This document shows, in pieces, positions 5,278-54,424 of a stretch of DNA of 54,678 nt. The DNA is taken from assembly GCF_000381125.1 (NCBI RefSeq), contig NZ_KB905950.1, positions 1-54,678 of the forward strand, written 5' to 3'. Under the pieces are notes generated by a model that was not told where the DNA came from, did no database searches, and worked only from the letters and a program-made list of their open reading frames with translations. The stretch is from Caldimonas manganoxidans ATCC BAA-369 (GTDB taxonomy: Bacteria > Pseudomonadota > Gammaproteobacteria > Burkholderiales > Burkholderiaceae_C). The position numbers and the translations under genes were made by a program. Position 1 is the first letter of the stretch. Each line of letters begins with the position of its first letter.

Positions 5278-5300
5278 GGCGTGGCTCCATCATTGGACAG

Positions 5301-31414: not shown

Positions 31415-31429
31415 TTTGGAGACAAGCCC

Positions 31430-32214: not shown

Positions 32215-32241
32215 GTGTCGCTTACAAGTTCAGAGCCAGAG

Positions 32242-32742: not shown

Positions 32743-32747
32743 TCGCA

Positions 32748-32776: not shown

Positions 32777-32795
32777 GCGTCCTGGAGTCCACGCG

Positions 32796-33008
32796 ATGGA
32801 AAGCGCCATGGCCGATCGTTGGTTATCCGTCGAGGAAATAGCCGAATACCTCGGCGTGAGCAGGGACACCGTCTACGCGTGGATCGCGAAAAAGGACATG
32901 CCGGCCCACAAGGTGGGGAGGTTTTGGAAGTTCAAGGCCGACGAGGTCGACGAATGGGTGCGCTCCGGCAAGGCGTCGGAGGAATCCGATTCGGCGGCGG
33001 GCCATTGA
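32796..33008 (+). CDS. small excisionase-type HTH protein at the head of the DISARM operon
   Basis: A 70-aa MerR-like HTH_17 protein: WLSVEEIAEYLGVSRDTVYA, then WIAKKDMPAHKVGRFWKFKA and DEVDEWVRSGK. This is the excisionase or DNA-binding fold that often precedes defence systems as a regulator. ATG 32796 has GGAG eight bases upstream; 32808 is also in frame. The tandem repeats before the promoter are good candidate targets. It lies 58 bp ahead of the methylase gene and may repress or activate the operon. Confidence 0.85.
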   Translation: MESAMADRWLSVEEIAEYLGVSRDTVYAWIAKKDMPAHKVGRFWKFKADEVDEWVRSGKASEESDSAAGH

Positions 33009-33066
33009 CTGCCCTGGGGATCGGAGTGCCCAGTTCGCCAGGACCGACTTCGCGAGGAGAGGAAGA

Positions 33067-34179
33067 ATGACCAAGTTGGCCTGCATCGATTTGTTCTGTG
33101 GGGCGGGAGGGCTCACGCACGGCTTGATCTCGGAAGGCGTGCCGGTCGTGGCCGGCATCGACGTCGATCCGGCTTGCCGCCACCCGTTCGAAATGAACAA
33201 CGGCTCTCGGTTCATCGAGGAAGACGTTTCGAGGACGAAGCCAGCGGTTCTGAAGGATCTCTTCGGGGACGCGGACGTTCGCATCCTCGCCGGATGCGCG
33301 CCTTGTCAGCCGTTCTCGACCTATGCCCAACGCTACGACACGGTGGGAAGTCCACGATGGGCACTGCTGTATGAGTTCGCGCGCCTGGTCAAAGCCGTTC
33401 GCCCTGATCTCGTCACCATGGAGAACGTGCCGACGGTGGAGAAACACGCGGTGTACGACGACTTCGTCACTGCCTTGGGGAAGTGCGGCTATCGAGTCTG
33501 GCACGGTGTCGTCGATTGCTCCGATTACGGGTTGCCACAACGCCGACGCAGGATGGTGCTGCTCGCCTCGCGCATCGGGCCGATCGAGTTGATCGAGCAC
33601 ACCCACGAGCGGCCCCAAACCGTGCGCGAAGCGATCGGGAAGCTTCCGCCGATACCGGCGGGCGGCACTCTGCCTTCCGATCCGTTGCACACGGCGTCCA
33701 AGCTTTCCAAGCTCAACCTCCAACGCATCCGCGCATCCCGTCCCGGCGGGACTTGGAGGGATTGGCCCAAACGTTTGATCGCGGATTGCCATCGCCGTGA
33801 TAGCGGCCGGACATACCCGGGTGTCTATGGCCGCATGGTTTGGGACGAACCCGCCCCGACCCTCACCACCCAGTTCTACGGTTTCGGCAACGGTCGCTTC
33901 GGACACCCCGAGCAGGATCGGGCGATATCGCTGCGTGAAGGAGCGATCCTGCAAGGTTTCCCGGAAGACTATTCCTTCGTCCCGGATGGTGCGCCGATCC
34001 ACTTCAAGAGCTTGGGCCGCATGATCGGCAACGCGGTGCCCGTCACTTTGGGGAGGATCATCGGCCGGAGCATCCTGCGGCATCTCGCCGTCGTGCCCGA
34101 GACGAAGACGGTCGACGAAACCACCCGGTCCGTCGCCGAGAGGAAGCGAAATGCCAAGTGTGAGCCCCTCGTCGCCTGA
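33067..34179 (+). CDS. dcm: C5-cytosine DNA methyltransferase
   Basis: A 370-aa enzyme with the C5-MTase motifs in order: I DLFCGAGG (9-16), IV APCQPFS near 78 with the catalytic Cys, VI MENVPTV near 118, VIII GLPQRRRRMVLL near 155 and X GRMIGNAVPVTLG near 317. It puts a methyl on cytosine C5 to mark self DNA. Its 3' end overlaps vsr by 29 bases, as in dcm-vsr loci. Class 2 DISARM uses a C5 enzyme (DrmMII) whereas class 1 uses DrmMI; both are present here. Sequence specificity cannot be read, but the Vsr neighbour suggests CCWGG-like sites. Confidence 0.93.
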   Translation: MTKLACIDLFCGAGGLTHGLISEGVPVVAGIDVDPACRHPFEMNNGSRFIEEDVSRTKPAVLKDLFGDADVRILAGCAPCQPFSTYAQRYDTVGSPRWALLYEFARLVKAVRPDLVTMENVPTVEKHAVYDDFVTALGKCGYRVWHGVVDCSDYGLPQRRRRMVLLASRIGPIELIEHTHERPQTVREAIGKLPPIPAGGTLPSDPLHTASKLSKLNLQRIRASRPGGTWRDWPKRLIADCHRRDSGRTYPGVYGRMVWDEPAPTLTTQFYGFGNGRFGHPEQDRAISLREGAILQGFPEDYSFVPDGAPIHFKSLGRMIGNAVPVTLGRIIGRSILRHLAVVPETKTVDETTRSVAERKRNAKCEPLVA

Positions 34180-34579
34180 AGCCAGCCGCCGCATGGCGCG
34201 CGTGCGCCAGCGAGGAACGGACGTCGAGATCGAACTGCGGCGGGCCCTGCATGCCCTGGGCCTTCGCTACCGCTTGCAAGTGCCACTGTCCAAAAAACCG
34301 CGACGGGTCGCCGACATCGTGTTCATCGGTGCGCGCGTGGCGGTTTTCGTCGATGGGTGTTTCTGGCACGGGTGTCCACTCCACGCCACCTGGCCAAAGG
34401 AGAACGCCGGATTCTGGCGCGCCAAGATCGAAGCCAACCGAGCGCGCGATGCCGACACCACCCGGCGCCTGCGAGAACTCGGTTGGGAAGTGATTCGCGT
34501 CTGGTCTCATGAAGATCCGGTCGAGGCCGCCCGCCTCATCTACGACCGCGTGCTGGAACGGAAGGGAAGAGCCTCATGA
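34151..34579 (+). CDS. vsr: very short patch repair endonuclease Vsr
   Basis: A 142-aa Vsr protein: RRMARVRQRGTDVEIELRRA, LGLRYRLQVPLSKKPRRVAD, IVFIGARVAVFVDGCFWHGC and AGFWRAKIEANRARDADTTR. The catalytic Asp (RVADIVF), DGCFWHGC and the REL-GWEVIRVWSHE end match the family. Vsr nicks at T:G mismatches left by deaminated 5-methylcytosine and so protects sites of the partner methylase. It overlaps the methylase gene and, by ATGA, drmD. Confidence 0.95.
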   Translation: MPSVSPSSPEASRRMARVRQRGTDVEIELRRALHALGLRYRLQVPLSKKPRRVADIVFIGARVAVFVDGCFWHGCPLHATWPKENAGFWRAKIEANRARDADTTRRLRELGWEVIRVWSHEDPVEAARLIYDRVLERKGRAS

Positions 34580-37500
34580 GCGTCACGCCACGATCGACTG
34601 GCGCCCGCTTCGTCCATGCGACCACCCCGGAGCCCGGCCAGCTGGTCGAGGTGCGACGGCGTCAGTGGGTCGTCGCCGACGTCGTCTCGTCGAATTTGGA
34701 GGGGGCACCACAGAACTGCGTGACACTCTCGTCGATCGACGAAGATGGCCTCGGCGAGGAGTTGGAAGTCGTCTGGGAGATCGAACCCGGTGCCCAGGTC
34801 ATCGAGCGGGCGGGCCTGCCATCCATAACCGGACAGGACGACGCGACCACGCTCGACGCCTTCCTCGACGCCGTGCGCTGGGGCGCAGCCACCAACGCCG
34901 ACCGCGGGTTCCTCCAGGCACCGTTCCGCAGCGGCGTCAGCATCGAGGACTTCCAGCTCGATCCATTGGTGCGAGCCATCGACATGGCCCGCGTCAACCT
35001 GCTCATCGCCGACGACGTCGGTCTCGGCAAGACCATCGAGGCCGGGCTGGTCATCCAGGAGCTCCTGTTGCGGCACCGCGCCCGCACCGTCCTCATCGTC
35101 TGCCCCGCCTCGCTGCAGGAGAAGTGGCGCGTCGAGATGCTGGAGAAGTTCGGCCTCGACTTCCGGGTGGTGGACACCGAGTACATCAAACGGTTGCGGC
35201 GCGAGCGCGGCATCCACGCCAACCCGTGGACGTCGCATCCGCGTCTCATCACGTCGATGGATTGGGCCAAGGGCGGCGAGGGGCTGCGTGCCATGCGCGA
35301 CGTGCTCCCGCCCCATGTCGGCCATCCGCGCAAGTTCGATCTGCTGGTCGTGGACGAGGCGCACAACGTCGCGCCCGCCGCGGGCGCGCACTACGCGCTG
35401 GAGAGCCAGCGCACGCGCTTCATCCGGACCATCGCTCCGCACTTCCAGCACCGCCTGTTCCTGACCGCCACACCCCACAATGGGTACACCGAGTCGTTCA
35501 CCTCGCTTCTGGAGTTGCTGGACGACCAGCGTTTCGCACGCAACATCCTCCCCGACGAGAAGCGCCTGAGCCAGGTGATGATCCGTCGCCTCAAGAGTGA
35601 TCTCGTCGATGCGCAGGGCAACCCCCTCTACGCGCGGCGCAATCTGCAGGCGCTGCCGATCCACTACACACCGGAAGAGCGTGAGATCCACCGCAAGCTG
35701 AGCGACTACTGTGCCAGCCGCGAGCAGCACGCCGAACGGGCCGGCAACGGCTTCGGCACGACCTTCGTCAACCGGCTGCTCAAGAAACGCTTGCTCTCGT
35801 CTCCGGCCGCGTTCGCCGCCACCCTCGAGAAGCACGCCAACTCCCTCTCCGCAACTCGGCCCGAGAAGCGCGACGCCATGGCCGAGCGCATCCTGCACAA
35901 GGCCATCCTGAGGGTCGAGGAGGACTACGCCGACGATCGGGAGGTCGAGAACGCCCAGGCCGAGGCCATCGAGGAGGCCACGCGCAGCACGCCGCCGCTG
36001 ACGGCGGAGCAGCGAGCGATGCTCGACGATCTGAGGTCGTGGGCCCAGCGCGCCAGGAACCAGGTCGATTCCAAGGCCCGCGCCATCCTCGACTGGCTCG
36101 AAAAACACCTCAAAGGGCCGAACGGCGAATGGAACGACCGCCGGGTGATCCTGTTCACCGAGTACCGCACGACGCACGAGTGGATGCATCGGATCCTCGC
36201 CAGCCACGGCTTCGGCGGTGAGCGCCTCGCGCTGCTGCACGGCGGTCTCTCCCAGGAGGAGCGCGAACCCATCAAGGCAGCGTTCCAGGCCTCCCCCAAG
36301 GACTCCCCCGTCCGCATCCTGCTCGCCACCGACGCGGCCTCCGAGGGCATCGACTTGCAGAACCACTGCAACATGCTCATCCACCTGGAGATCCCCTACA
36401 ACCCCAATGTGATGGAGCAGCGCAACGGGCGCATCGACCGCCACGGCCAGCGCGAGAGGGAGGTGCTGATCTGGCACCCGGTCGATGGCGGTGACGCTCG
36501 AGGCACCTCGGTCGGCGGCCACGCCGAGGACATCCTGCGCGCCCTGCGCAAGCTGGACTCGATGCGCGCCGACATGGGCAGCGTCAATCCGGTAATCGCG
36601 CCGCAGATGTCCGGCCTCATCGAAGGCTCGCTGAAGGACCTGGACACCCGCATGGCCGAGGCCCGGATCGCCCGGGCCAGGAACTTCGTCCGAGCCGAAC
36701 GCGAGTTGAAGGAGCGCGTCGCCAAGCTGCACGAACGGCTGCTGGCCACCAAGCAGGACTTCCACCTCGATCCCCAGCACATCCTGATGGCGGTCAAGAC
36801 CGGCCTCGCCTTGGCGGGCCGTCCACCCCTGGAGCCCGTCGAACTGCCCGGCGCCCCGCCCGGCACCGTCTTCCGCATGCCCGCGCTCTCCGGATCCTGG
36901 GCGCGCTGCCTGGAAGGATTGCGTCATCCCCACACGCAGAAGATCCGCCCCATCACCTTCGACCACGCCGTCGCCAGCGGCCGCGACGACGTGGTGCTCG
37001 TCCACCTGAACCATCGCCTGGTGCAGATGTGTCTGCGCCTGCTGCGCGCCGAGATCTGGGCCCGCGACGACGTGAAGAAGCTGCACCGCGTCACCGTCCG
37101 CAGCGCCCCCGACGTGCTACTCGACGGTCCGGCCGTGGTGATCGTCTCGCGGCTGGTGATCACTGGCGGCAACCATCACCGCTTGCACGAGGAGCTGACC
37201 GTCTCCGGCGGCTACCTGCGTGATCAGTCCTTCCGCCGTGAAGAGAGGGTCACCCGCGTCCAGCAGTGGCTGGACGACGGCAAGCCGACCACCGCGGCGG
37301 CGCCCCTGTTCGACGCGCTCCGCGTCCGCTTCGATCGCCACCGCGAAGCCATCCTCGAGGCGGTCGCTGCCCGCTCCAAGGAACGGCTGCGCTACCTGAC
37401 CAACACGCTGCAGACCCGCAAACGGCAGGAGATCGACGACATCGGTACCGTGCTCGACGAGCTGGAGCGAGCGATCCAAGCCGAACTGGCGAAGGGTGGG

Positions 37501-37710
37501 CAGCCCGAACAGCTCTCGCTCTTCACCGAGGACGAGCGCATGCAGCTGCGGCGTGACATCGCCGCGCTGCAGGCCCGGCTCGCTCGCATCCCGGAGGAGC
37601 GCCGCATGGAGACCGAGGTCGTCGAATCCCGCTATGCCAAGCTCGACGACCGCACCTTCCCGGTCGCCGTGATCTTCGTCGTGCCCGAGTCCGCCGGAGG
37701 TGCCGCATGA
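34576..37710 (+). CDS. drmD: DISARM SNF2-like helicase DrmD
   Basis: A 1044-aa superfamily 2 helicase. Walker A IADDVGLGKTIEAGLVIQEL lies at about 143-162, LIVCPASLQEKW near 173, the DEAH box LLVVDEAHNVAPAAG at 255-269 and FLTATPHNGYTESF near 295. The C-terminal helicase half has ILFTEYRTTHEWMHRILASH near 525 and motif VI MEQRNGRIDRHGQRERE near 612. A long C-terminal region with coiled coil follows (QEIDDIGTVLDELERAIQAE). DrmD marks class 1 DISARM and acts with the other Drm proteins against unmodified invading DNA. It overlaps both vsr and drmMI by ATGA. Confidence 0.93.
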   Translation: MSVTPRSTGARFVHATTPEPGQLVEVRRRQWVVADVVSSNLEGAPQNCVTLSSIDEDGLGEELEVVWEIEPGAQVIERAGLPSITGQDDATTLDAFLDAVRWGAATNADRGFLQAPFRSGVSIEDFQLDPLVRAIDMARVNLLIADDVGLGKTIEAGLVIQELLLRHRARTVLIVCPASLQEKWRVEMLEKFGLDFRVVDTEYIKRLRRERGIHANPWTSHPRLITSMDWAKGGEGLRAMRDVLPPHVGHPRKFDLLVVDEAHNVAPAAGAHYALESQRTRFIRTIAPHFQHRLFLTATPHNGYTESFTSLLELLDDQRFARNILPDEKRLSQVMIRRLKSDLVDAQGNPLYARRNLQALPIHYTPEEREIHRKLSDYCASREQHAERAGNGFGTTFVNRLLKKRLLSSPAAFAATLEKHANSLSATRPEKRDAMAERILHKAILRVEEDYADDREVENAQAEAIEEATRSTPPLTAEQRAMLDDLRSWAQRARNQVDSKARAILDWLEKHLKGPNGEWNDRRVILFTEYRTTHEWMHRILASHGFGGERLALLHGGLSQEEREPIKAAFQASPKDSPVRILLATDAASEGIDLQNHCNMLIHLEIPYNPNVMEQRNGRIDRHGQREREVLIWHPVDGGDARGTSVGGHAEDILRALRKLDSMRADMGSVNPVIAPQMSGLIEGSLKDLDTRMAEARIARARNFVRAERELKERVAKLHERLLATKQDFHLDPQHILMAVKTGLALAGRPPLEPVELPGAPPGTVFRMPALSGSWARCLEGLRHPHTQKIRPITFDHAVASGRDDVVLVHLNHRLVQMCLRLLRAEIWARDDVKKLHRVTVRSAPDVLLDGPAVVIVSRLVITGGNHHRLHEELTVSGGYLRDQSFRREERVTRVQQWLDDGKPTTAAAPLFDALRVRFDRHREAILEAVAARSKERLRYLTNTLQTRKRQEIDDIGTVLDELERAIQAELAKGGQPEQLSLFTEDERMQLRRDIAALQARLARIPEERRMETEVVESRYAKLDDRTFPVAVIFVVPESAGGAA

Positions 37711-37835
37711 GCATGCACCACGACTGGCTCTCGCTCATCGAGATCTCCGGCCCCTTCCTCGCCGTCCCGGTCCTGAAGGAAGCCTTCCCGCAAGGGCTGG
37801 AGGGCACTTCGCATAACCCCATTTCCGAAGGCTGA
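37707..37835 (+). pseudogene. drmMI: drmMI 5' fragment, cut off by the IS
   Basis: The start ATG 37707 overlaps the drmD stop by ATGA. The 31 true codons read MSMHHDWLSLIEISGPFLAV then PVLKEAFPQGL, the typical start of a DrmMI/PglX-like methylase. At 37802 the IS begins and the frame runs only 11 more codons to TGA at 37833. The natural continuation is on the other side of the IS (39108 onward). The short product would have no catalytic part. Confidence 0.88.
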
Positions 37836-39103
37836 ACCGGCATGAGGGCGCTCGCGTCGTTCAGTTCGGGGTTCTCGGTGCCGCTCAGGCCCCGTCATCG
37901 CAGCCTTGGCGGGCACCCGAGGCCCTGCAAAACTGCGTTTGCAGGCTGCAGCGGGCGCACCTCTCCCTTCATCGCGCACACCCGCACGGGTCATGGCGCA
38001 CCAGCCAGACCAGCCGCTTGGCGTTGTACGCCGCGCACTTGAGCAGGATCGCCAGTTCGTTTCTCGCCAGCGTCATCGCCCGCACGCACTTGCCGCCCAA
38101 CTGCTCGAGGCCGGCGAACACATGTTCGCCTCTGGCGCGGACGCGGTTGATCGCCTTGTTGCGCGCGTCCAGTCGCACGCGCCGCTCCTGCCCGGGCTTG
38201 GCACGCCGCGCGATGCCGTCGCGCAGCCCGTGGGCCTGCAGCAACTGGCGGTTGGTCTGCGCGTCGTAGCCTCGGTCGGCCAGCAGCCGCGCGCCGGTGT
38301 TGGCGCGGTCCAGCACCTCCTTGAGCGTCTGGCCGTCGTCGGCGTTGGCTGGCGTGACCTTCGCCTGGCGGATCAGCTTGTAGCGCGCGTCCGCGTTGGC
38401 GTGCACCTTGTAGCCGTAGAAGCTCTTGCCGTGCTTCTTGGTCCAGCGCGCGTCGCGGTCGGTGTGCTGCAGCCGCTTGGCATTCCAGCCCTCGGGCCTG
38501 CGGCCTTCGTTGAGCGCTTCGCGCTCGTCCTTGTTCGCCTGGGTGAGCGGTGCCTGCACGATGCTGGCATCCACGATCTGCCCGCCGCGCGGGATGTAGC
38601 CGTGCTGCTGCAACTGCAGGCTCACCGCCTCGAAGATGGCGCGGCCGCCCAGACCGCCTTGGGCCAAGCGCTGCTTGAAACTCCACAGCGTGCGCGCATC
38701 GGGGATGTGCAGTGCTCCGTCCAGGCGGCAGAAGTGCTGGAAGCTCATGCGGTCCAGCACCTGGTACTCGCAGTCCTCGTCGCTGAGGTTGTACAGCGAC
38801 TGGATGAACAGCAGCCGCACCATCACCTCGGTGGGGTACGGCGGGCGCCCGCCTTTGCTACGGTCAGCGCGAGGGCAGGCGGTGTCGACCCGGGCGGCAA
38901 TGGCCGCGAAGTCGATCAGTTCGTCCATTGCTGCCAGGTTGGCGATGAAGCCGCCGAGCTTGGCTTGGCGCTGGTCCTGCACGAACAGGTCAGCGCCGGG
39001 CTGAGAGCGCCAGAAGGACGAGGGCTTGATGCGCGATGTGCTCATGGGCGCCATCATGCCGGCTCACGGGCTGCAAGGGGGAGGGAGGTTTCGAGAAGTG
39101 CCC
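37802..39103. mobile_element. complete IS5-family insertion sequence, 1302 bp
   Basis: The element has perfect nine-bp terminal repeats GGGCACTTC (37802-37810) and GAAGTGCCC (39095-39103), then further similarity inward. It is flanked by the direct repeat TGGA (37798-37801 and 39104-39107), the expected 4-bp target duplication. It holds one transposase gene on the minus strand and a small hairpin CTGCAAA/TTTGCAG near its left end. It sits within drmMI and looks intact and recent. Confidence 0.93.
37969..39045 (-). CDS. IS5-family transposase
   Basis: A 358-aa DDE transposase. The N-terminal DUF772 domain reads RSKGGRPPYPTEVMVRLLFI near 71 and LSDEDCEYQVLDRMSFQHFC near 95. The DDE core has QIVDASIVQAP near 161 (first D), LLADRGYDAQTNRQLLQAHG near 257 (second D), and the YREK-like C-terminal RARGEHVFAGLEQLGGKCVR near 309 (E). 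It cuts and pastes the element using the GGGCACTTC ends. I chose ATG 39045; ATGs at 39054 and 39057 would add only three or four residues. It is intact, so the element may still move. Confidence 0.93.
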   Translation of the reverse strand: MSTSRIKPSSFWRSQPGADLFVQDQRQAKLGGFIANLAAMDELIDFAAIAARVDTACPRADRSKGGRPPYPTEVMVRLLFIQSLYNLSDEDCEYQVLDRMSFQHFCRLDGALHIPDARTLWSFKQRLAQGGLGGRAIFEAVSLQLQQHGYIPRGGQIVDASIVQAPLTQANKDEREALNEGRRPEGWNAKRLQHTDRDARWTKKHGKSFYGYKVHANADARYKLIRQAKVTPANADDGQTLKEVLDRANTGARLLADRGYDAQTNRQLLQAHGLRDGIARRAKPGQERRVRLDARNKAINRVRARGEHVFAGLEQLGGKCVRAMTLARNELAILLKCAAYNAKRLVWLVRHDPCGCAR

Positions 39104-42100
39104 TGGAGGAGCTCGACGTCGCCAAGCGCAAACGGCTGCGGCAGGCCTACGACGAGTGGCAGGAGGCGCTGGAGACGGGCGATCCACGCTTCGACGACCT
39201 GCACGCCGCCTGGATCGACGAGGTCCTCGCACGTGGGCTGGAGCTGGACGAGGACGGCCGGGGCGACGTGCTGAAGCGCCGCGACTGGTGCGCCGCGAAC
39301 GTGGTCGTCGATCTACCCGAGCACGGCGTGAGCCTGTCGCCGGAGTTCGCCGTCGTCGCCGACGGCGGCAAGCCGCTGCTGCTGATCCAGACCCACGGGC
39401 CAGAGGTCGATCTCGAAGCCACCCAGAGGCTGGACGGTTGGGCCAGTACGCCCGCGGAGCGCATGGTGGCGCTCTGCCGTGCCACCGGCTGCCGCCTGGG
39501 GCTCGTGACCAACGGCGAGCGCTGGATGCTGGTGGATGCCCCGGTGGGCGCGGTCACCACCTTCGCCAGTTGGTACGCGCGCATCTGGGGTCAGGAACCC
39601 GTCACCCTCCAGGCCTTCGTCCACCTGCTCGGCATCCGGCGCTTCTTCGTGGACGAGTCGGAACGGCTGCCCGCGCTCCTCGATCGCTCGCTGAAGTACC
39701 AGGACGAGGTCACCGACGCCCTGGGCGAGCAGGTGCGGCGTGCGGTCGAAGTGCTGATCCAGGCGCTCGACAAGGCCGACCAGGACCGCGATCGCACACT
39801 GCTGCGCGACGTGAAGGAGGCCGAACTCTACGAGGCCGCGCTGACGGTGATGATGCGGCTGGTCTTCCTGCTCTGCGCGGAGGAACGCGGCCTGCTGCTC
39901 CTGGGCGACGAGCGCTACGAGGCCCACTACGCCGTCTCCACCCTGCGCATGCAGCTGCGCGCCGAGTCCGATGAGATCCTCGAGCGCCGCTGGGACGCTT
40001 GGTCGCGCCTGCTCGCCGTGTTCCGTGCCGTCTATGGCGGCATCGAGCACGAGAACCTGCGCCTGCCCGCGCTCGGCGGCTCCCTGTTCGATCCGGATCG
40101 TTTCCCCTTCCTCGAGGGCCGAGCCAAGGGGTCCCATTGGCGCACCGATGCCGCGAAGCCGCTGCCCATCGACAACCGCACCGTGCTGCTGCTGCTCGAG
40201 GCCATCCAGCAGTTCCAGGGCCGTACGCTGTCCTACCGGGCGCTGGACGTGGAGCAGATCGGCTACGTCTACGAGGGCCTGCTCGAGCGCACCGTCAAGC
40301 GCACCACCGACGTCACGCTGGAGCTCGACGCCACCAAGAGCGCCCAGTCGCCCTGGGTCACGCTGGCCGAGCTCGAATCTGCCCGGCTCGACGGCACCGA
40401 GCACCTGGTCGCACTGCTGCGCGAGCGGTCGGGCAGCTCCGAGAGCCGCGTGCGCAACGACCTGGCCCGGCCCGTCGACGACGCGTTGGCGGAGCGTCTG
40501 CTCACCGCCTGCCACGGCGACACGCGGCTTCGTGACGACCGCATCCGGCCGTTCGCCCATCTGCTCCGCTCCGATCCATGGGGCTATCCGCTGGTCCATC
40601 CGGCCGGTGCCTACGTGGTCACCACCGGCTCCGACCGGCGCGAGACCGGCACGCACTACACGCCGAAGTCCCTCACCGAGGCCATCGTCGCCGAGACGCT
40701 CACTCCCGTCGCCTACGTCGGCCCGGCGGAGGGCAAGCCGCGCGCCGAATGGGTGCTCAGGTCTCCCGAGGAATTGCTGGATCTGAAGGTCTGCGACCCG
40801 GCCATGGGTTCGGGCGCCTTCCTCGTGCAGGCCTGCCGCTGGCTCGCCGACCGGCTGGTGGAGGCCTGGGCTCGGGCCGAGGCCCAGGGCCATACGGTGG
40901 GCATCGATGGGCGGGTGGCGGAGGCCGGCTCAGAAGTCGAGCCGCTGCCGCGCGACGTCGAGGAGCGCACCATCGTCGCCCGCCGCCTCGTCGCCGAGCG
41001 CTGCCTCTACGGCGTGGACCTGAACCCGCTGGCGGTGGAGCTGGCCAAGCTCTCGCTGTGGCTCACCACGCTGGCCAAGGGGCGGCCCTTCGGCTTCCTC
41101 GACCACAACTTGCGTCAGGGCGACAGCTTGTTGGGTATCCATCGGCTGGATCAACTGACCCAGCTCACGATGAACCCCTCGGGCCAGGGGCAGCTGCGCC
41201 TGTTCGGCCAGACCATCGAACGCGCCGTGCGCGAGGCCATCGAGCTGCGGCAGCGGCTGCGCGAGACGCCCATCCGCGACATCCGCGACGTGGAGGTCAT
41301 GGCGAATCTGGATGCCGACGCACGCCAGAGGCTCGAAGTGCCCGAGCTCATCGCCGATGCGTTCATCGGGGAGATGTTCGCTGCGGGGGGCACTGGCGCG
41401 GCGTTGGAGAACGCCCTGGCCTCGCTCGCCGTCCAGGCCGGGCGGGCCATCGACGGCGATCAGGAGACGCTGGCCGCGATGTGTCGTCGATCCGTCGCCG
41501 CACTCTCGACCGATCTGCCCGCCGGAAAGCCAGTACGTCGGCCTTTCCATTGGCCGCTGGAGTTTCCGGAGGTGTTCGCCGATGGCCGCGGAGGATTCGA
41601 CGGCATCGTAGGCAATCCACCTTTTCTCGGCGGGCAGCGCATCACCGGTGTCGCAGGCACTGCCTTCCGCGATTGGCTGGTCACACACATCGCCGAGGGA
41701 CGTCGCGGTTCGGCCGATCTGGTCGCCTACTTCTTCCTGCGGGCGTGGAGCCTCCTGCGTGAAGGCGGTGGTTTCGGCCTGCTCGCGGTCAACACCATTG
41801 CGGAGGGCGATACGCGGCAAGTGGGGCTGGAAGCCATGGTCCGTGCGGGTGCCGTCATCCATGCGGCCTACCCGAACGAGCCCTGGCCCGGCAAGGCGGC
41901 AGTCGTCACCAGCCGAGTCCATGTTCACAAGGGCGAGTGGCGGGGCGAACGCTCGCTGCTCGGGCGGCCGGCCCCCTTCATATCGGCTTTTCTCTCGGAT
42001 CGTGAGGAATGGAGCCCGAAGCGGCTGAAGGCGAATGAGGGATTGGCGTATCAAGGCTCCATCGTGCTGGGCATGGGCTTCGTGCTTCTACCCGAGCAGG

Positions 42101-43389
42101 CTCGCAGGATGCTGGATGCCGATCCGAGGAACGCCGAAGTGGTCTTCCCTTACCTCAACGGCGATGACCTCAATTCAGACCCAGAGCAGAAACCGAGCCG
42201 CTGGGTGATCAACTTCTGGGATTGGTCGGAAGCGAAGGCGAAGACGTATACGCAGCCTTACGAATGGCTGGAAGAGAACGTGAAGGCGGAGCGTCTTTCC
42301 AACAAGGATAAAGGCGCACGCGAGAAGTGGTGGCTGTTTCTCCGGGCGAGATCTGAGCTATATCACGCCATCGGTCGTGGTCATCATTTCGAGCGTCACC
42401 CGGAGGGCTGGTTTCCCTGCCGGAGTCAACCAACTCGAGTGCTGGCGATTACGCGCGTCAGCAAGACGCTGGCGTTCTCGTTCGTCGATTCCAACATCGT
42501 CTTCTCCGATGCGACCGTCGCGTTCTCACTCTGTCGCGGGCGTGACTTCGCACTGTTGCAGTCGAACGTCCATACCGTCTTCGCGTGGCAGCACGCATCA
42601 CGTCTCAAGAGCGATTTGCGTTACAGCCAGACGGATGCACTCGAACCGTTTGCTTTCCCCGACGGATTCAGTGATACACACAACGACCCGCTTGATGACT
42701 TGGGAGATCGACTCCACCAAGGCCGCATTGAAGTCATGCAGGCCGAGCGCATTGGCCTGACCAAGCTATACAACCGCTTCCATACCGACACCGAACGCGA
42801 TCCCCGCATCGAAGGGCTGCGCGCATTGCAACGTGAAATGGACGTTGCCGTCGCACGCACCTATGGCTGGGACGACCTCGACCTCGAACACGGGTTCCAC
42901 GAAGTGCCATACCTGCCGGAGAACGACCGCGTGCGCTTCACCATTTCCGAGACTGCGCGCGTCGAAGTGCTGCGACGGCTGTCGGAGTTGAACCGTCAGC
43001 GGTACGAGGAGGAAGTCGCTCGAGGTTTGCACGGCAGCAGAGCCACCGACACTGTCACCCGCAGGCCACGCACCCTACGCATCGAAACTACATCCGTACG
43101 GCAAGCCTCATTCGGATTCGATATCGCCCCAGCCAACGAAGGCCGCTACCTCAAAGCCGCCGAACCGAGCGCCGGCTACCGAGCTGGGCCCGCCCATGCC
43201 ATCGTCGAACACCTGAAGACCCGTCCCGGCTGGCACGGTAAATCCGACATCCTCGCCGCCACAGGCATCACGGACGGCCAGTGGAACGCCGCGATCGCCG
43301 AGCTGCTCGCCGGCGGCCGAATCGAACGTCAAGGAGAGCGGCGCGGGGCGCGGTATCGAGCCACCAACGATGCGGAGGGATCGGCATGA
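39104..43389 (+). pseudogene. drmMI: drmMI 3' fragment: DISARM adenine methyltransferase DrmMI
   Basis: This holds nearly all of the methylase: about 1427 of 1458 codons. Numbering in the restored protein: LEELDVAKRKRLRQAYDEWQ near 31, AdoMet motif KVCDPAMGSGAFLVQACRWL near 590, YGVDLNPLAVELAKLSLWLT near 668 and catalytic motif GIVGNPPFLGGQRI near 866. NPPF marks an N6-adenine methylase of the PglX/type IIG-like kind. A target-recognition region and a small winged-helix-like end (GKSDILAATGITDGQWNAAI) follow. DrmMI modifies host DNA in class 1 DISARM. The insertion removes the normal start; a fusion starting in the IS is possible. It overlaps the KAP gene by ATGA. Confidence 0.92.
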
Positions 43390-45527: not shown

Positions 45528-45536
45528 GGGGAGCAC

Positions 45537-47492: not shown

Positions 47493-47505
47493 GGGGGTCA
47501 AGGGT

Positions 47506-50500
47506 ATGACGAACAGTCCCAATGCCTGGATCGCCATCGACCACGGCCTCGGCACCGGTCGCAGGCTGGCGCCCTACACGTTGGCGTCGAAGGGTGACCG
47601 ATCCCAGTACCAGGCCGTCGCCGAGGACGACTGGGTGCTGGTACTCGACGCTGCCGGGGCAGTGGTGCGTGCCGGGCGTGTGCTGCGCATCCGATCCGAC
47701 CTCGAGACGACCACGATCTTCTTCGACCGCGTGTGCGCCGCCGGTGCGTCGGTACCGGCGGCCAGCCTGTCGCTGACGCCCCCGTCCTCTGGCAGCGTCG
47801 GGCGTATCTCGTGGGAGACCTTCGTCTCGGCTTTGTCCAAGGCGTTCGGCCACACCGTCGCGACCGTGCCGGTGATCGAAGACCGAGCCTACGTTCGCGA
47901 ACTGCTGCAACTGGCCGTGGTGGACGACCTGCTCGGCCCTGCCGGCGGCCCGCACGAGCGCATCGTGGACATGAGCGTGCGCGATCGCTACCTGGTCGGG
48001 AAGTTGGCTCCGCGCGAAGCGGCTCGAGGTGGCATCGAGGGTCTGGAGGGGCCGCTGGCGGAGGAAGAAGTGGAGGAACCCAGCGACCCGATCGTACCTG
48101 GCCAGCACGAACCGGGTGCTGAGTTCGGGACGGCGGCCGGACGGGTGGAACCCGAGTCGGATGCCTCCGATGAGATCGACGCCGCCAGCAATCAGTCGCT
48201 GGTGCCCAGCAGCTTCGGCATGACCTTTTGTGTCGACGGCGACGTCGAGCGGATCGAAATCGAGGCACGTTGGGGGAGGTACGAGCGCGTGCCCAACGAC
48301 GAGCACGAGCTGACGCGCCCGAATGGGCAGAAGGTCAAGGTCTGGCAACGCATTCCTTGTGGCGGCAAGCTGGTGCTACCCCTCACAGAAGGCGCGATCC
48401 CCCACCAGGCGCCCGACCCGAATCATCCGGCAGTACGGATCCAGGGTTCCGTCCGGGCCAGGAACGCCAAGGGTGATCGCTTGGTGACTCTGTTCCTGGT
48501 CAACGCGCAGGAGGAGCCTGACACCAACCGTGATACCGCCTGGCTGTTCCAGCCCGAGCTGATCGTGCGAGCGGAACCCGCGACCACAGGCCAGGCCATC
48601 TTTCGCCGCCGCCCGGTGTTGGACGCGGACGGGATGGATCCCGAGCGCGAGTCGTTGGAGATGATCTACCGCAACCGTGTGGAGTTCGCGGTCGGTCATG
48701 GCGTGGCCGTACATGCGGAGACGGCCGAGGACGACCCGACGCGGGCCATCGAGGTGCGCACCACCGTCGTGCCACAGTACGAGGTACAGGTGACCGAGAC
48801 GCCGGGTCTGGATCCCGCCGACCGCCCAGCGATGAGAGAGATGGTGGCGAGCGGCCTGCTCGACATGCAGCGCCTCGCCACCCTGGACGTGGCCGAGTTG
48901 GTCGAGGCGCTGAACACGCTGACCCGCGACTACGGGGCGTGGATCGCGGAGCAGCGCAGCCGCATCGGCCGGGACGTGGTCGGCTACGACATGCAGGCCG
49001 CCCAGGCGTTGGATCGGTGCGAGGAGATCCGAGCGCGGCTGCAGCAAGGCATCGACACGCTGAAGAACGACGAAAAGGCGCTGACCGCGTTCCGCTTCGC
49101 CAACCGAGCGATGGCATTACAGCGCGTGCGGAGCGTCTATGCTCTGAAACGGCGTCGGGGAGAGGATCCCGATCTCGGCGAGCTGGAGAAGAGCGAGAGG
49201 CCTTCCTGGCGTCCGTTCCAGTTGGCGTTCCTGCTGCTGTCGATCCCCTCGTTGGCCGATCCCATGCACGCGGATCGCGTGCAGCCCATGGAGGCCCACG
49301 CCGACCTGCTGTGGTTCCCCACCGGTGGTGGTAAGACCGAGGCCTATCTGGGCGTGGCGGCGTTCACCATGGCGATCCGGAGGCTGCAGGGCAAGCTCGG
49401 CGGCTACGACGGTTCGCGCGGGCTGGCCGTGATCATGCGCTACACCCTGCGGCTACTGACCTTGCAGCAGTTCCAGCGCGCCACGGCGCTGATCTGTGCG
49501 ATGGAGATGCTGCGTCGCGAGGCCCTGGCCGATGGCGACACCTCATTGGGTCACGAGCCATTCACCATCGGCCTGTGGGTCGGCAACAGGGTGACGCCGG
49601 GGACGACCGAGGACAGTCATCGGGCCATCGAGGACATCCGCAATCCCGGCAGACACCAGGCCGGGGCCACGTCCCCCGTACAGTTGACTAGTTGCCCGTG
49701 GTGTGGCTCCGACATCGCGCCGGGGCGCGACGTGGACGTCGACAAGGATCGCGGGCGCACGCTCGTCTTCTGCGGCGACAAGAAGGGCCGTTGCGAGTTC
49801 TCGAGAGGGAAGTCGAGCAAATCCCCGCATCCCGGCATCCCGGTGCTGACGGTGGACGAGGAGATCTACCACCGTCCGCCGACGATGATGATCGCCACCG
49901 TGGACAAATTCGCCATGATGGCGTGGCGTGGCCAGGTGCGCACGCTGTTCGGCCGGGTGAGCCAGGAATGCGAGCGCCATGGCCTGCTCTGGCCCGGCTG
50001 CGAGTGCAACACCGGCCACCGCGCATCCAAGGGCCTGCCCGCGGCGGCGGTGAGGTCCGTCAGCCCCATCCGGCCGCCCGATCTGATCATCCAGGACGAG
50101 TTCCACCTCATCAGCGGCCCGCTGGGCACGATGGTCGGCCTGTACGAATCGGCGGTGGACGAGCTGTGCGGGTGGACGCTCGACGGCAAGACGATCAAGC
50201 CGAAGATCGTCGCGTCCACGGCGACGGTCCGCAAAGCCAAGGAACAGGTGAACAACGTGTTCATGCGGCGCGTGTCGGTGTTCCCGCCGCATGGCCTGGA
50301 CGTGGAGGACAACTACTTCTCGGTCCAGCGTCCGATCGATCGGCGGCCTGGGCGTCGCTACCTCGGCGTGTGCTCGCCCGGCAGCTCGCGTCCCGCGATG
50401 CTGATTCGCGTCTACACCGCCTTCCTCACCGCGGCACAAGCCCTGTTCGAGCGCTTCGGTGAGGCCGCCGACCCGTACATGACGATGGTCGGATACTTCA

Positions 50501-51477
50501 ATTCACTGCGCGAGCTGGGTGGGATGCGACGGCTGGCCGAGGACGACGTCCAGACGCGTTCGTACCGCGTGCAGATGAGCATGGTCGAGCGGCCCGCGCT
50601 CGCCCAGCGCAGCGTCAGCAACATCCGGGAGCTGACGTCGCGCGTCTCCAGCCAGGACATCCCGAAGTACCTCGACGATCTGGAAGTCAAGTTCAAGGCC
50701 ACGTTCGATCCGAGTGTGGACAAATACGTGACGAGATGGAACGAGGGCGACACCCGCGCCATCGATGTGGTGCTGGCGACCAACATGCTGTCGGTCGGCG
50801 TGGACGTGAACCGGCTGGGCCTGATGGCGGTAAACGGACAGCCGAAAGGCACGGCCGAGTACATCCAGGCGACCAGCCGTGTGGGCCGGTCCTTCCCCGG
50901 GCTCGTCTGCTCGGTGCTCACGTGGGCAAGACCGCGCGACCTCTCGCACTACGAGACCTTCGAGCACTACCACGCGACGTTCTACAAGCACGTGGAGGCG
51001 CAGTCGGTGACACCGTTCTCGCCTCGTGCCATGGATCGCGGGCTGACCGGCGCGTTGCTGAGTCTGATGCGGCTGGAGTACGCCGACTTCAGCCCGAACG
51101 AGGGAGCGGCCGTACTCGACCGGTCCGACAAGCCCGAGGTCCTCGAGGCCATCGACGTGCTGGTGGGCCGAGCCTGGAACGTCAGCGAGAACCGCACCAT
51201 CGAGGCGCTGGCCGAACGTGAACTGAAGGAACGAGCCGACGAGTGGGCCAAGGAGGCGAGTGTCCCGGGACGGACCTTGGCCTACGAGAAACGCGGCGAA
51301 CGTGCGGCGACGATGGTTGCGCTGATCAAGTCGCCCGGCATCCACGCGTGGGACAACTGGACGGTCCCCATGTCGATGCGCGAGGTCGAGCCTGGCGTGC
51401 GGCTGATCATGAACACGGGGCGCCTATCGGACGGTCACGGCTGGAAGCCCCGCCCGGTGTCGAGTGACGAGGACTGA
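47506..51477 (+). CDS. drmA: DISARM helicase DrmA
   Basis: A 1323-aa helicase that defines DISARM with DrmB. The N-terminal 580 residues are the DrmA-specific region. The helicase has Walker A [20 protein letters not shown] near 600, [20 protein letters not shown] near 646, a cysteine pair SCPWCGSDI near 728 with [10 protein letters not shown] after it, and the DEFH box [20 protein letters not shown] near 862. The second half has [20 protein letters not shown] near 1092 and motif VI [14 protein letters not shown] near 1118. In DISARM the DrmA-DrmB complex loads on DNA ends or single strands. It starts 13 bp after the GHKL gene. Confidence 0.95.
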   Translation: [1323 protein letters not shown]

Positions 51478-51479
51478 AA

Positions 51480-53327
51480 ATGACCGATCGAACCCCCGTC
51501 GGCGAGGTGCGGCCGAGCCAATTGCTGTGGACGTATGGCCCAGGCGCGCTGATCGACCTCCCGAACCTGTCGGTGGTGACGCTGGGCATCGACCAGTGGG
51601 AGAAGGACCGCTGCCAGCCGATCCAGGAGCCGCGCCTGCTCGCCGCCGTCCGCAAGGTCCTCGGACCGCAGGTGGAGAACCTGCGCGTGCCCCCGTTCCA
51701 GAAGAGCGAGCTCGTCGATCCGTGGTCGGCGGAGGCGAACATCGGCGTTCCCGTGCGCCCGTTCCCGCGCTGGATGCGCTGCGTGAAGTGCGGTCTGCTG
51801 TCACCCTTTGACGCCGGCCTGTTCGAGATCAAGGAGCACCGCTTCCGTCCGGAGCGCACCCGCTTCGTCCACAAGAGCTGTCGTGGTTCCAAGGACGACC
51901 AGCCAGCGAAGGACGCCGATGCGGTTCCCGCGCGTTTCCTGCTGGCCTGCCGCAACGGCCATCTCGACGACTTTCCCTGGCACTACTTCGTCCACGGCGG
52001 CAACGGCGCCTGCAGGGGGACTCTGCGCTTCTTCGAGAGCGGCGCCTCGTTGCAGACCGAGAACCTGTGGGTGAAGTGCGATACCTGTGGGGCATCGCGC
52101 AGCATGGCGCAAGCCTTCGGCAAGGCAGGGAAGGAGAACCTGCCGAGCTGCCGAGGCAGGCATCCCCACCTGGACCATTTCGACGACGACTGTGACGAAG
52201 AGGCGCGGGCCATCCTCTTGGGCTCGACGAACGGTTGGTTTCCGATCACCCTGTCCGCACTCGCCATCCCCCAGGCCAAAGACCCGCTCGCCCAACTGAT
52301 CCAGGATGGCTGGGAGTTCTTCGACGATCTGGACTCGGAGGCCGCCGTCGCCGTGACGGTGAAGACGCTGAAGAAGACCGGAGTCCTACCGGGCATCGAC
52401 AAGTATTCGGCCTCCGCCATCTGGGCGGCGATCGAAGCGCATCGCCACGGCGGCGGGCGGGACACCGTCGGCGAGGCCGATATCAAAGGGCCGGAGTGGG
52501 ACGTCCTGACGGCAGCCGATCCGCCGGCCGACTACCCACACTTCATGAGCAAGAAGGTGGACACGCCGGCCGGATTCGAAAGGTACATCCGCAGAGTGTT
52601 GCTGCTGGAGAGGCTCCGAGAGGTCAATGCCCTGTTGGGCTTCACCCGCGTGGAAGCGCCCGAGGAGTCGAGCGATCCGGACGAGCGCCCTCGGATGGCG
52701 GCTCTCGCCCGCCACAAGCCCGATTGGGTGCCGGCGAATCAGGTGCATGGCGAGGGCATCTTCATCCAGTTCAGCGAGGAGGCACTACGGGCGTGGGAGG
52801 CGCTCGCGGGTGTCCAGCAGGTCGATCGGATGCTCATGGCCGGGCATCAGGGTTGGCGGAACTCGCGCCACCTCGATCCGAACGAGGGCTATCCGGGTAT
52901 CCGCTATGCCATGCTCCACACGCTGTCACACTTGCTCATCCGCGAGCTGGCACTCGAATGCGGCTACAACGCGGCGAGCATCCGTGAACGGATCTACGCC
53001 GATGCCGAGAATCGACGTGCGGGCATCCTCATCTACACGGCGGCGGCCGATTCGGACGGGACGCTGGGTGGCCTCGTCGACCTGGGCAAACCCGAGAACC
53101 TCGGCCGACTGCTGCGGCAGGCCCTGAACCGAGCGAAGGTCTGCTCGTCCGACCCGCTCTGCTCGGAGCACGACCCAGGCAAGGATCGCTCGCTCCACGC
53201 CGCCGCGTGCCATGCGTGCAGCCTGGTCGCGGAGACCTCCTGCGAGCGGGGCAACCGTTACCTCGACAGGTCTTTGCTGGTGCCGACCCTCGAACGAGGG
53301 AGCGCCGCGTTCTTCGCCGAGCTGTGA
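51480..53327 (+). CDS. drmB: DISARM protein DrmB (DUF1998)
   Basis: A 615-aa partner of DrmA: GEVRPSQLLWTYGPGALIDL near 8, then zinc-type pairs MRCVKCGLLSPFDAG near 98 and WVKCDTCGASRSMAQAF near 197. The DUF1998 core reads YAMLHTLSHLLIRELALECG near 476 and LIYTAAADSDGTLGGLVDLG near 517. Final cysteines are in CHACSLVAETSCERGNRYLD near 578. DrmB forms a complex with DrmA that senses and unwinds invader DNA. It follows drmA by two bases and precedes drmC by one. Confidence 0.95.
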   Translation: MTDRTPVGEVRPSQLLWTYGPGALIDLPNLSVVTLGIDQWEKDRCQPIQEPRLLAAVRKVLGPQVENLRVPPFQKSELVDPWSAEANIGVPVRPFPRWMRCVKCGLLSPFDAGLFEIKEHRFRPERTRFVHKSCRGSKDDQPAKDADAVPARFLLACRNGHLDDFPWHYFVHGGNGACRGTLRFFESGASLQTENLWVKCDTCGASRSMAQAFGKAGKENLPSCRGRHPHLDHFDDDCDEEARAILLGSTNGWFPITLSALAIPQAKDPLAQLIQDGWEFFDDLDSEAAVAVTVKTLKKTGVLPGIDKYSASAIWAAIEAHRHGGGRDTVGEADIKGPEWDVLTAADPPADYPHFMSKKVDTPAGFERYIRRVLLLERLREVNALLGFTRVEAPEESSDPDERPRMAALARHKPDWVPANQVHGEGIFIQFSEEALRAWEALAGVQQVDRMLMAGHQGWRNSRHLDPNEGYPGIRYAMLHTLSHLLIRELALECGYNAASIRERIYADAENRRAGILIYTAAADSDGTLGGLVDLGKPENLGRLLRQALNRAKVCSSDPLCSEHDPGKDRSLHAAACHACSLVAETSCERGNRYLDRSLLVPTLERGSAAFFAEL

Positions 53328-53328
53328 C

Positions 53329-54090
53329 ATGGAGAGACTCCTGGAAGCCGTCACAGCCGTGGTCTGTCTCGTTTCGCCGGAGAAAGTGCGGGCGCTGGCG
53401 GGCGCGATTCGGAAGATCGAGGACGCGAAGGCGAACGCCGCCCTGTCGGATGTCGTCGGCACGGCTACGGCCAAAGCCGTCGTCGATCGTCTCGTCGATG
53501 CTTGGCGGAGCACGTCGGTCGGTTCCGGCGAGTTGGCTTCGATGCTCCTCGCCGCCGGTCATGCATTCGAGAGCGTGTCGAAGCAGCAGTCGATTGAGCT
53601 CGTGTGGACGGGGCCGACGACGCCCTTCGTCTCGGCGCGCCGAACCGAACAGGCGCTGTTGCAGGTCATCGGTGCGGCCAGGCAAACCTTGTTCGTCACC
53701 AGTTTCGTGGCCTACGACGTCTCGACCATCGTGAAGGCGTTGAACGACGCCATCTCACGGGGGGTCAACGTCTCGATGCTCCTCGAGTCGTCACAGGATC
53801 ACGGGGGCAGCATCACCTTCGACGTGATCGGCAAGATGAGGGCACTGGTTCCCTCCGCGAAACTCTACGCCTGGCGTGAGCGAGCAGCCCCGTTCGCGGA
53901 TGGGCGGGTCCACGCCAAGGTCGCCGTCGCCGACGGCGCCGTCTGCTTCATCACCAGCGCCAATCTGACCGGTCATGCCATGGACCGAAACATGGAGGCT
54001 GGCGTACTCCTTACGGGCGGGCAAATCCCGAGGTTACTGCACGAACACTTGCAGGCGTTGGTCGACACGAAAACGGTGTCTCCCGTCTGA
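53329..54090 (+). CDS. drmC: DISARM phospholipase D-like protein DrmC
   Basis: A 253-aa PLD-family protein with one HKD motif, RVHAKVAVADGAVCFITSAN near 193, and TGHAMDRNMEAGVLLTGG after it. The first half is helical (LAGAIRKIEDAKANAALSDV), followed by ALLQVIGAARQTLFVTSFVA near 108. In DISARM it is the expected nuclease, possibly as a dimer that brings two HKD motifs together; it is dispensable in some tested systems. It is the last gene before the terminator at 54224. Confidence 0.93.
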   Translation: MERLLEAVTAVVCLVSPEKVRALAGAIRKIEDAKANAALSDVVGTATAKAVVDRLVDAWRSTSVGSGELASMLLAAGHAFESVSKQQSIELVWTGPTTPFVSARRTEQALLQVIGAARQTLFVTSFVAYDVSTIVKALNDAISRGVNVSMLLESSQDHGGSITFDVIGKMRALVPSAKLYAWRERAAPFADGRVHAKVAVADGAVCFITSANLTGHAMDRNMEAGVLLTGGQIPRLLHEHLQALVDTKTVSPV

Positions 54091-54424
54091 ACTTGCGAGG
54101 AAGTGCGCGAGGGCGTCCGGCTCATCCTCGGATGCGCTCACAGTGAAGAATCACTCCTACGGCGGCCTCTCCCGTCTGGCAGACGGGTTTCCTATGGTGG
54201 GAAACTCCACCACCACCATTCCACGCCCAACCGCCCTCGGTTGGGCGTTTTCATTCCCGGGTTGCGCCACACCACGCAACGGCTTCGCAGGAGCACGTCA
54301 CACGCGCAGGCTGTCTTTCGTGGGCATGACATGCGCGTGCGTCTCTTGGTGAACTCTCCCGAGTCGCCCCGCGTCGGCCGGTTTCTCGGTCTCCGTGCCC
54401 GCCAATTGGTCGGCCCTGCAAAAT
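54091..54424. other. intergenic region between drmC and the right-hand IS fragment
   Basis: No gene is evident in these 334 bp. It contains two small hairpins (54171-54187 with stem CCCGTCT/AGACGGG, and GGTGG/CCACC at 54197-54211), the intrinsic terminator and then sequence of unknown origin up to the IS5-like transposase. Part of it probably belongs to the end of that IS, but I cannot place its terminal repeat. Confidence 0.6.
54224..54252 (+). terminator. intrinsic terminator of the DISARM operon
   Basis: CGCCCAACC (54224-54232), loop GCCCTC and GGTTGGGCG (54239-54247) form a nine-bp GC-rich stem followed by TTTTCATT. It lies 134 bp after the drmC stop and is the strongest terminator in the window. 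Confidence 0.9.

Follow-up and report, generated by a model that had tools for sequence, protein, structure and literature searches.

A class 1 DISARM operon behind a prophage endolysin in Caldimonas manganoxidans, a probable chassis for exchangeable defence cassettes

The DNA analysed here, hereafter the window, is the whole of contig C22 (54,678 bp) of the 3.53-Mb genome of Caldimonas manganoxidans ATCC BAA-369. Positions 8235-32721 cover the late region of a tailed prophage, with genes for terminase, portal, protease, major head, tail, tape measure and endolysin, and about 90 bp past the end of the endolysin gene begins an operon of the DISARM type (defence island system associated with restriction-modification). 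Its gene order is a helix-turn-helix (HTH) gene, a C5-cytosine methyltransferase gene, a Vsr gene, drmD, drmMI, a KAP nucleoside triphosphatase (NTPase) gene, a paraMORC3-like GHKL-nuclease gene, drmA, drmB and drmC (Table 1). A first-pass annotation had recognised this gene set but overlooked the prophage directly upstream and the 66-aa HTH gene. Strong PADLOC matches confirmed its drmD-drmMI-drmA-drmB-drmC core, and PF00145, PF03852 and PADLOC bore out a C5 methyltransferase and Vsr at the head of a class 1 operon. The two further large genes that it had seen between drmMI and drmA encode the KAP NTPase and the GHKL-nuclease.

Table 1. Features of the operon and the adjoining prophage end, by position in the window
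Feature	Position	Strand	Basis
Phage gene, function not assigned	31636-32214	+	phrog_6637
Endolysin, last prophage gene	32215-32721	+	phrog_7, PF00959
Small HTH/excisionase-like protein (66 aa), probable regulator	32808-33008	+	phrog_66, 54 bits
C5-cytosine DNA methyltransferase (DrmMII-like)	33067-34179	+	PF00145, 178 bits; best PADLOC match DrmMII, 307 bits; PCQPFS and ENV motifs
Vsr-type endonuclease	34151-34579	+	PF03852, 62 bits; PADLOC Vsr
drmD, SNF2-like helicase	34576-37710	+	PADLOC DrmD, 1543 bits
drmMI 5' piece	37707-37801	+	Begins within the drmD stop; interrupted by the IS-like element
IS-like element, 1.3 kb	37802-39103	-	DDE transposase, inverted-repeat ends, 4-bp direct repeat at edges
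drmMI 3' piece, MmeI-like N6-adenine methyltransferase	39104-43389	+	PADLOC DrmMI, 1940 bits; PF07669, PF20466
Exchangeable slot, drmMI stop to drmA start	43390-47505	.	Interval comparison among loci
KAP P-loop NTPase, first slot-cassette gene	43386-45527	+	PF07693, 203 bits; PADLOC PifA, 385 bits; start overlaps drmMI stop
GHKL ATPase with C-terminal PD-(D/E)xK-type nuclease motif (paraMORC3-like), second cassette gene	45537-47492	+	PF13589; PADLOC REase_II, 383 bits
drmA, DISARM helicase	47506-51477	+	PADLOC DrmA, 1630 bits
drmB	51480-53327	+	PADLOC DrmB, 283 bits; MZB domain PF09369
drmC, PLD-type nuclease	53212-54090	+	PADLOC DrmC, 397 bits from residue 40; PF13091; HKD motif; true start maybe ~53329

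Class 1 DISARM was reportedly described by Ofir et al. in 2018. PADLOC defines it by the presence of drmA, drmB, drmC, drmD and drmMI and the absence of drmE (PMC9252829). In the window, all five genes are present, drmMI being split by an insertion sequence (IS), and DrmE is absent from the best-25 PADLOC lists of the 13 proteins scanned. Class 2 combines drmE with DrmMII; here, a DrmMII-like C5 methyltransferase is present, with no DrmE in these lists and with DrmD and DrmMI instead. By its gene content, the locus is a class 1 DISARM. The best match of drmD, PDLC02572 (1726 bits), is labelled DrmA, yet its length is that of the DrmD models, and different models are matched by the true DrmA; the best match of drmMI is a type IIG model (2047 bits, compared with 1940 bits for the DrmMI model). 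The rule of the first-pass annotation that DISARM classes use either DrmMI or DrmMII proved too strict, as Bravo 2022 (PMC9142583) describes DISARM with "DrmMI and/or DrmMII" and "additional auxiliary genes". Catalytic motifs were found in the eight of nine proteins scanned for them (all except DrmB). The KAP protein has Walker A and B motifs and matches the PADLOC PifA model over nearly the full length. Known KAP proteins carry transmembrane segments inserted within the P-loop domain, and PifA is a phage-exclusion protein. A promoter scan of 32600-46000 returned 0 sites (0.9 in shuffled sequence).

We compared the intervals between the core genes among loci anchored on DrmD (G, L and C numbers denote our genomes, loci and contigs). 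This set comprised 22 loci (7 genomes, and 15 of the 27 plasmid records that reached 80% coverage or more), of which 18 were measured; the others were G1067 and L127 (both with drmABC on the opposite strand), L129 (interval crossing the record start) and L130 (drmA not found), and G273 and G341, with weaker DrmD matches, lay outside the set. The drmMI-drmA interval was at least 1 kb long in 11/18 loci, compared with 1/18 for drmD-drmMI, 0/18 for drmA-drmB and 0/13 for drmB-drmC (Wilcoxon test: p = 2e-4 versus drmA-drmB, p = 0.006 versus drmD-drmMI). G573 holds there a UvrD-like helicase and a DUF2290 gene (PADLOC, 974 and 265 bits), and this cassette recurs in the other backbone of G452 at 73% DNA identity. 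Similarly, G604 holds GHKL and Methyltransf_35 genes (profile matches), which recur in Microvirga at 75% identity. In G323, the occupant is an RT_UG5-nitrilase gene (PADLOC, 947 bits; the Pfam reverse transcriptase (RT) match is below the cut-off, 24 vs 30 bits). According to record annotation, the slot contains XisH/XisI on the other strand in Oscillatoria (992 bp by annotated gene ends), a PIN gene in Planktothrix, an ATP-binding protein in Nostoc, PLD and XRE genes in Methylocystis, XRE in Acidibrevibacterium and minus-strand genes in Nocardioides; in G1128, it is only 8 bp long. An ATGA overlap, in which an ATG and the drmMI stop share letters, occurs in 9 of the 16 loci examined, window included, and the first slot gene would therefore be translationally coupled. 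These comparisons indicate that the drmMI-drmA interval is a variable slot with swapped defence genes, rather than the home of a fixed KAP/paraMORC3 part, and that the KAP-paraMORC3 pair is one slot occupant among several.

G573, a single-contig genome from the same taxonomic order, has the same prophage end and the same DISARM as the window. DNA identity between the two is 93.3% over 31401-37687 (phage end through drmD) and 95.3% over 47517-54223 (drmABC), and silent-site identity is 90-93% in the common genes except drmMI. The two slots have no detectable sequence in common, and no DNA or translated match was found between the window slot and four other slots. The G573 difference looks like an exchange at gene boundaries, not random decay. 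A further variable region lies within DrmMI, where identity to G573 is 84-98% over residues 1-800, 62% over 800-900, 32-40% over 900-1200 and 66-82% thereafter; the DrmMI stretch at ~42.1-42.7 kb, the recognition region, was unalignable in 5/5 relatives compared. G573 also has an extra open reading frame (ORF) of ~668 aa between drmD and drmMI (L112/L113, ~1815013-1817019), starting at the drmD stop and marking a second, rarer insertion point; this ORF had no PDB match. The 2.0-kb drmD-drmMI stretch was rejected as an IS, since it is an extra ORF and lacks terminal inverted repeats (13/60 positions), and an in-frame stop reported for G573 DrmD was rejected as a sign of decay.

Recurrence of the KAP-paraMORC3 layout was also investigated. 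A KAP scan of 84,980 species genomes, restricted to close relatives, gave 20 loci, 11 of which lie in DISARM operons (L020-L025, L027, L029, L030, L036 and L038), in addition to viral contig L009. According to the record titles, the hosts belong to several families of Pseudomonadota (Acidovorax, Rhodanobacteraceae, Denitrificimonas, Nitrincola, Alkalimonas, Microbulbifer, Lautropia and Zoogloea) or are three metagenome-assembled genomes (a planctomycete, an Anaerolineae member and an unclassified one). KAP follows drmMI in 11/11 of these DISARM loci and precedes drmA in 10/10 with drmA available (the L038 DNA ends in KAP). The orthologous GHKL gene comes after KAP in L020, L024 and L030 (90-91%), L021 (74%) and L009 (92%). 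L027 has another GHKL protein there (30% identity), and L036 has a 49-residue stretch of the GHKL protein together with a YhcG nuclease. The first-pass annotation had proposed looking for the same gene order elsewhere, its view of a merged system failing if homologous loci never shared the added genes. In this search, other genomes did carry the added genes in corresponding positions, and the refuting condition fails. Because the recurrence is in unrelated genomes, chance is ruled out for the layout.

The remaining 9 of the 20 KAP loci have no match to any other operon protein in the DNA examined. Such KAP relatives, and the relatives of paraMORC3 seen in DISARM-free phages and plasmids, are what would be expected if the added genes were independent systems lying together by chance in an ordinary defence island. 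However, order and strand are identical in 11 genomes from three phyla (going by record titles), and the slot edges coincide with the drmMI stop and the drmA start, with the start/stop overlap described above; we therefore regard island neighbourhood as very improbable. A search for relatives with the GHKL protein gave matches in 6/60 genomes, one being the source genome itself (G000) and five being short GHKL-domain matches. Two side observations concern these loci. In L030 and L036 (G070:C74 and G071:C3), KAP matches in two pieces, both split near residue 605 of the window KAP. In L021 (14236-18995), the slot continues past KAP and paraMORC3 with another SNF2-like helicase (PADLOC DrmD, 2104 bits) and with a protein of 544 aa that matched neither Pfam nor PADLOC.

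We then characterized the paraMORC3-like protein. A GHKL domain with intact ATP-binding motifs is present, and the N-box, D59-G61-G63, G99/K101/G102/K105, D532, E546 and K548 are invariant in 14/14 aligned sequences, as is E481. The C-terminal motif is D-x13-E-x-K; an E-D-ExK nuclease is thus represented at the motif level, with E481 as its presumed first E, and the restriction endonuclease (RE) fold itself was unmatched. In the AlphaFold model, which is of modest quality (pLDDT 66), strands are predicted at 529-536 and 541-548, and Foldseek matched the N-terminal part to Hsp90, an N-terminal fragment of MutL and MORC2 over ~210-340 columns, with TM-scores of 0.20-0.26 by query length. Such matches fit the paraMORC3 family of Iyer 2008; the S5 domain that follows GHKL in this family is, on these alignments, a candidate feature. 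In 4/5 DISARM slots, the orthologues are 90-92% identical, where KAP is 70-80% and DrmA 76-82% identical. The paraMORC3 silent-site identity in the same loci is 38-55%, like that of neighbour genes. As the protein is conserved while its silent sites are as diverged as those of its neighbours, purifying selection under strong constraint is indicated, and a recent transfer behind the high identity was rejected on the same ground. In an unrooted tree, a single branch (90/99, below the starred level) separates the proteins of the DISARM slot from the others.

A C5 methyltransferase accompanies the orthologous GHKL gene in 6/6 DISARM loci (window included). Among GHKL relatives outside the slot (L010-L017, representing 5 of 35 plasmid records, a single phage record and 2 of 3 viral contigs), the methyltransferase is present in 8/8 and Vsr in 6/8; in L013, the methyltransferase lies 11 kb away. 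At the DrmD-anchored loci, the head was found in 6/6 with DrmD at least 67% identical (G573, G604, G452, G323, G1128 and Microvirga) and, by similarity to the window enzyme, in 0/12 more distant ones; it is therefore a trait of one DISARM lineage. The HTH gene precedes the methyltransferase at 69-100% identity in phage as well as non-phage loci, 13 in all (L046-L051, L020, L021, G573, G604, G452, G1128 and Microvirga), and at 35% in L052; it was not detected before the methyltransferase in other loci, such as L024, L029, L030 and L053. In Deinococcus, a block of its own that follows drmC contains methyltransferase, Vsr and paraMORC3. Phage contig L200 (10613-18785) carries HTH (63%), C5 methyltransferase (85%) and Vsr (78%) genes behind a related endolysin without the DISARM core; the head is followed there by another large ORF and a minus-strand DrmA/DrmB-like pair.

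Iyer 2008 (PMC2292703) places MORC/paraMORC genes in restriction-modification (RM) operons with cytosine methylases and Vsr, which agrees with what the first-pass annotation had said of MORC-like ATPases. As in those operons, the window protein is a GHKL ATPase with a C-terminal RE-fold-type nuclease motif linked to C5 methyltransferases and Vsr, whereas here it stands in a DISARM operon, separated from the methyltransferase by drmD, drmMI and KAP. A C5 methyltransferase-Vsr-paraMORC3 RM unit might have been split around the DISARM core, the two systems now being one with a common 5-methylcytosine (m5C) mark. The constant partnership described above and the published operons speak for such an origin, and 15 DISARM head methyltransferases fall into one supported group (98/97) with those beside 7/8 paraMORC3s; this wider group says little, because the methyltransferase sample was gathered mainly via paraMORC3. 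However, heads occur without an intact paraMORC3 in L022, L025 (weak, 33%), L029, L036 and the six close DrmD-anchored loci named above. The head methyltransferases also cluster in a subgroup of their own (94/93) that excludes most paraMORC3 partners, although L017 (a paraMORC3 partner on a long branch) and L200 lie inside it. Furthermore, the near-identical sister operon of G573 has a different cassette, and the head (the methyltransferase, in most cases together with Vsr) occurs with other slot contents. We consider a split RM unit unlikely. The earlier suggestion of two defence logics fused in one operon holds in that the genes are together and recurrent, but not as a fixed merger, since the added genes vary independently.

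Other arrangements of paraMORC3 were noted. In phage PhiR44_1 (L012, 9992-13040), with P2-type gene names, annotated ParaMORC3 and Dcm lie between portal gene Q and replication gene A. On the Rubrobacter and Rhizobium plasmids L013 and L015, paraMORC3, C5 methyltransferase and Vsr are near very large DEAD/DEAH helicase genes, possibly Druantia-like.

The IS-like element interrupts drmMI ~32 codons from its start, and its DDE transposase ORF occupies 37969-39057 on the minus strand (PF01609/PF05598). The DNA of 5/5 relatives compared (L046, L020, G604, G452 and G573) can be aligned as far as 37801-37803, the alignment picking up again at 39103 or slightly later, and the downstream piece enters its best PADLOC model at position 28. 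An ORF of 1827 aa was rejected as the real drmMI gene, being a read-through of the element. The element had no second match in its own genome (40 of 131 candidates scored), and none was found in plasmids. The first-pass annotation had deduced one transcript from tight overlaps between the C5 methyltransferase gene and drmC; this fails for the present copy because the IS lies in drmMI, and the gene order of the operon type holds nevertheless. The insertion would probably reduce or abolish adenine marking in this genome and may lower expression of the genes downstream of drmMI. An in-frame ORF runs through the IS into drmMI, so a truncated DrmMI product is possible. With the IS so close to the start of drmMI, the locus in this genome could be a decaying passenger whose function ended with the insertion, the rest being residual. 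We lean against this but regard it as quite possible: the other frames are open and the motifs are kept in the eight proteins checked, other loci have an uninterrupted drmMI (1359 aa in viral contig L009, beginning at the drmD stop), and a single IS is no proof of long decay.

The site of the operon was next compared with respect to phage genes. The endolysin gene and its neighbour form a pair directly upstream of DISARM in L046-L050 (pair broken in L047) and in two single-contig bacterial genomes, G573 and G604. Among the eight viral contigs with close DrmD, from a collection enriched by construction for phage-type contigs of this sort, the endolysin is directly upstream in 5/8 and the neighbour gene in 6/8. 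The tail protein, matched in four of these contigs, differs from that of the window (39-76% identity). A DrmB scan of the viral contigs gave no match, and a tRNA scan of nine pieces found none. Viral contig L072 opens with an ORF bearing a recombinase-type motif (motif match only).

Taken together, we interpret this class 1 DISARM behind a temperate-phage endolysin as a chassis whose defence cassettes can be exchanged, a reading to which we assign a probability of roughly 75%. Several points weigh against it. Neither KAP nor the window's GHKL type was found in the slot of the DrmD-anchored loci (0/18 each), which makes the pair a minority occupant. These 18 loci are a convenience sample, and the statistics ignore relatedness. 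In L021, paraMORC3 is, at 74%, less conserved than DrmD, DrmA and DrmB of the same locus, and the copy in the window carries a split drmMI. No endolysin match was found in the fetched upstream flanks of 11 loci (L020, L021, L022, L024, L025, L029, L030, L036, G452, G323 and G1128), so DISARM of this type also resides elsewhere; in L020 (Acidovorax), a partial endolysin match lies ~11 kb downstream instead. At the G573 prophage borders, there was no clear att repeat and no ORF matching the recombinase motif used; since att sites were not found, a location inside a phage genome is not proven.

Beyond the observed architecture, recurrence, cassette exchange, motifs and IS insertion, we infer every biochemical step and any defence role from the sequences. 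In the proposed chassis, drmD, the body of drmMI, drmA, drmB and drmC would form the constant core. The head module (HTH regulator, C5 methyltransferase and Vsr) would add m5C as a second self-mark, and Vsr would repair deamination of this mark. The recognition region of DrmMI, swapped between relatives, would change the adenine mark. The slot would take cassettes, often coupled via overlapping start and stop codons: KAP and paraMORC3, a UvrD-like helicase and DUF2290, GHKL and a methyltransferase, RT-nitrilase, KAP and a YhcG nuclease, or nothing. Judging from their families, the two methyltransferases would mark lysogen DNA, and DrmAB would load on unmarked DNA with 5' overhangs, assisted by DrmD and DrmC. 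According to PMC9142583, DrmAB loads on 5'-overhang DNA, and unmethylated DNA stimulates its ATPase more than m5C-methylated DNA does; PMC12458937 describes class 1 DrmA as carrying a predicted EVE-like domain for modified bases. As a GHKL clamp with its own nuclease, paraMORC3 would cut unmarked DNA as a second effector, plausibly in an m5C-sensitive manner, and KAP would act as a separate NTPase layer. A bolder and doubtful extension is that class 1 DISARM serves as an assembly platform, in which the methylation-based self/non-self machinery and translational coupling at drmMI-drmA would license autonomous modules. Cassettes and the DrmMI specificity region would then be exchanged together by recombination between phage-borne copies, and a lysogen would renew mark and effector in one event.

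The operon resembles known class 1 DISARM in its five strongly matched core genes and differs from it in the C5 methyltransferase-Vsr-HTH head, in KAP and paraMORC3 between drmMI and drmA, and in the split drmMI. According to PMC10270631, DISARM-like operons of Pseudomonas contain an embedded ShdA gene in ~70 cases, likewise an extra defence-type gene within such an operon; here, in contrast, the genes are others, several alternative cassettes occupy one gene boundary, and a near-identical pair has exchanged contents. In the titles and abstract beginnings listed by our searches of the open-access literature (subscription literature being mostly outside this scope), there was no mention of KAP or paraMORC in DISARM, of cassette exchange at drmMI-drmA or of phage-borne DISARM of this kind. 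Extra genes as such are already on record for DISARM. If the slot is general, DISARM operons would be a place to find defence genes, with anything between drmMI and drmA a candidate, and their "auxiliary genes" would become a testable rule; near-identical operons with different cassettes, such as those of the window and G573, would be natural swap experiments. MORC-type nucleases would likewise be linked to DISARM self-marking, and very large defence operons would be shown able to sit behind temperate-phage lysis genes.

The post-endolysin site looks like a general defence hotspot. We tallied the largest ORF at 52 distinct sites, each with 2.5 kb of DNA or more, taken from the best 80 matches of each of two scans. 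ResIII was matched in 9, HSDR_N in 5, N6_N4_Mtase in 5, GmrSD_N in 4 and PglZ in 3; these families overlap and are left unsummed, and the tally stands without a control set. The P2/P4 phage defence hotspots (PMC9122126) are similar in combining a fixed phage site with variable defence genes, whereas here the site is behind the endolysin of other tailed phages and the occupant is a DISARM operon of ~21 kb. In phage AcaML1 (L126, 12216-18195), Dcm, McrB and McrC lie behind a related endolysin region with 82% DNA identity. A second prophage end is located on contig C21 of the same genome (L123, 1-18744; endolysin 81%, neighbour gene 86%), followed on the opposite strand by a TIR/SEFIR-like gene, HmaC, PDC-M61B, PDC-M61A, HmaB and HmaA. 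The same post-endolysin site thus holds another defence system there, Hma, with two additional genes embedded between hmaB and hmaC. Hma (PMC8565338) is a different system from DISARM; the two are alike in being large helicase/methylase/ATPase operons, with a copy of each behind a related endolysin in this genome. Elsewhere in the window, two neighbouring phage genes at 3179-6564, both matching phrog_498, encode ParB-like and DNA methyltransferase domains.

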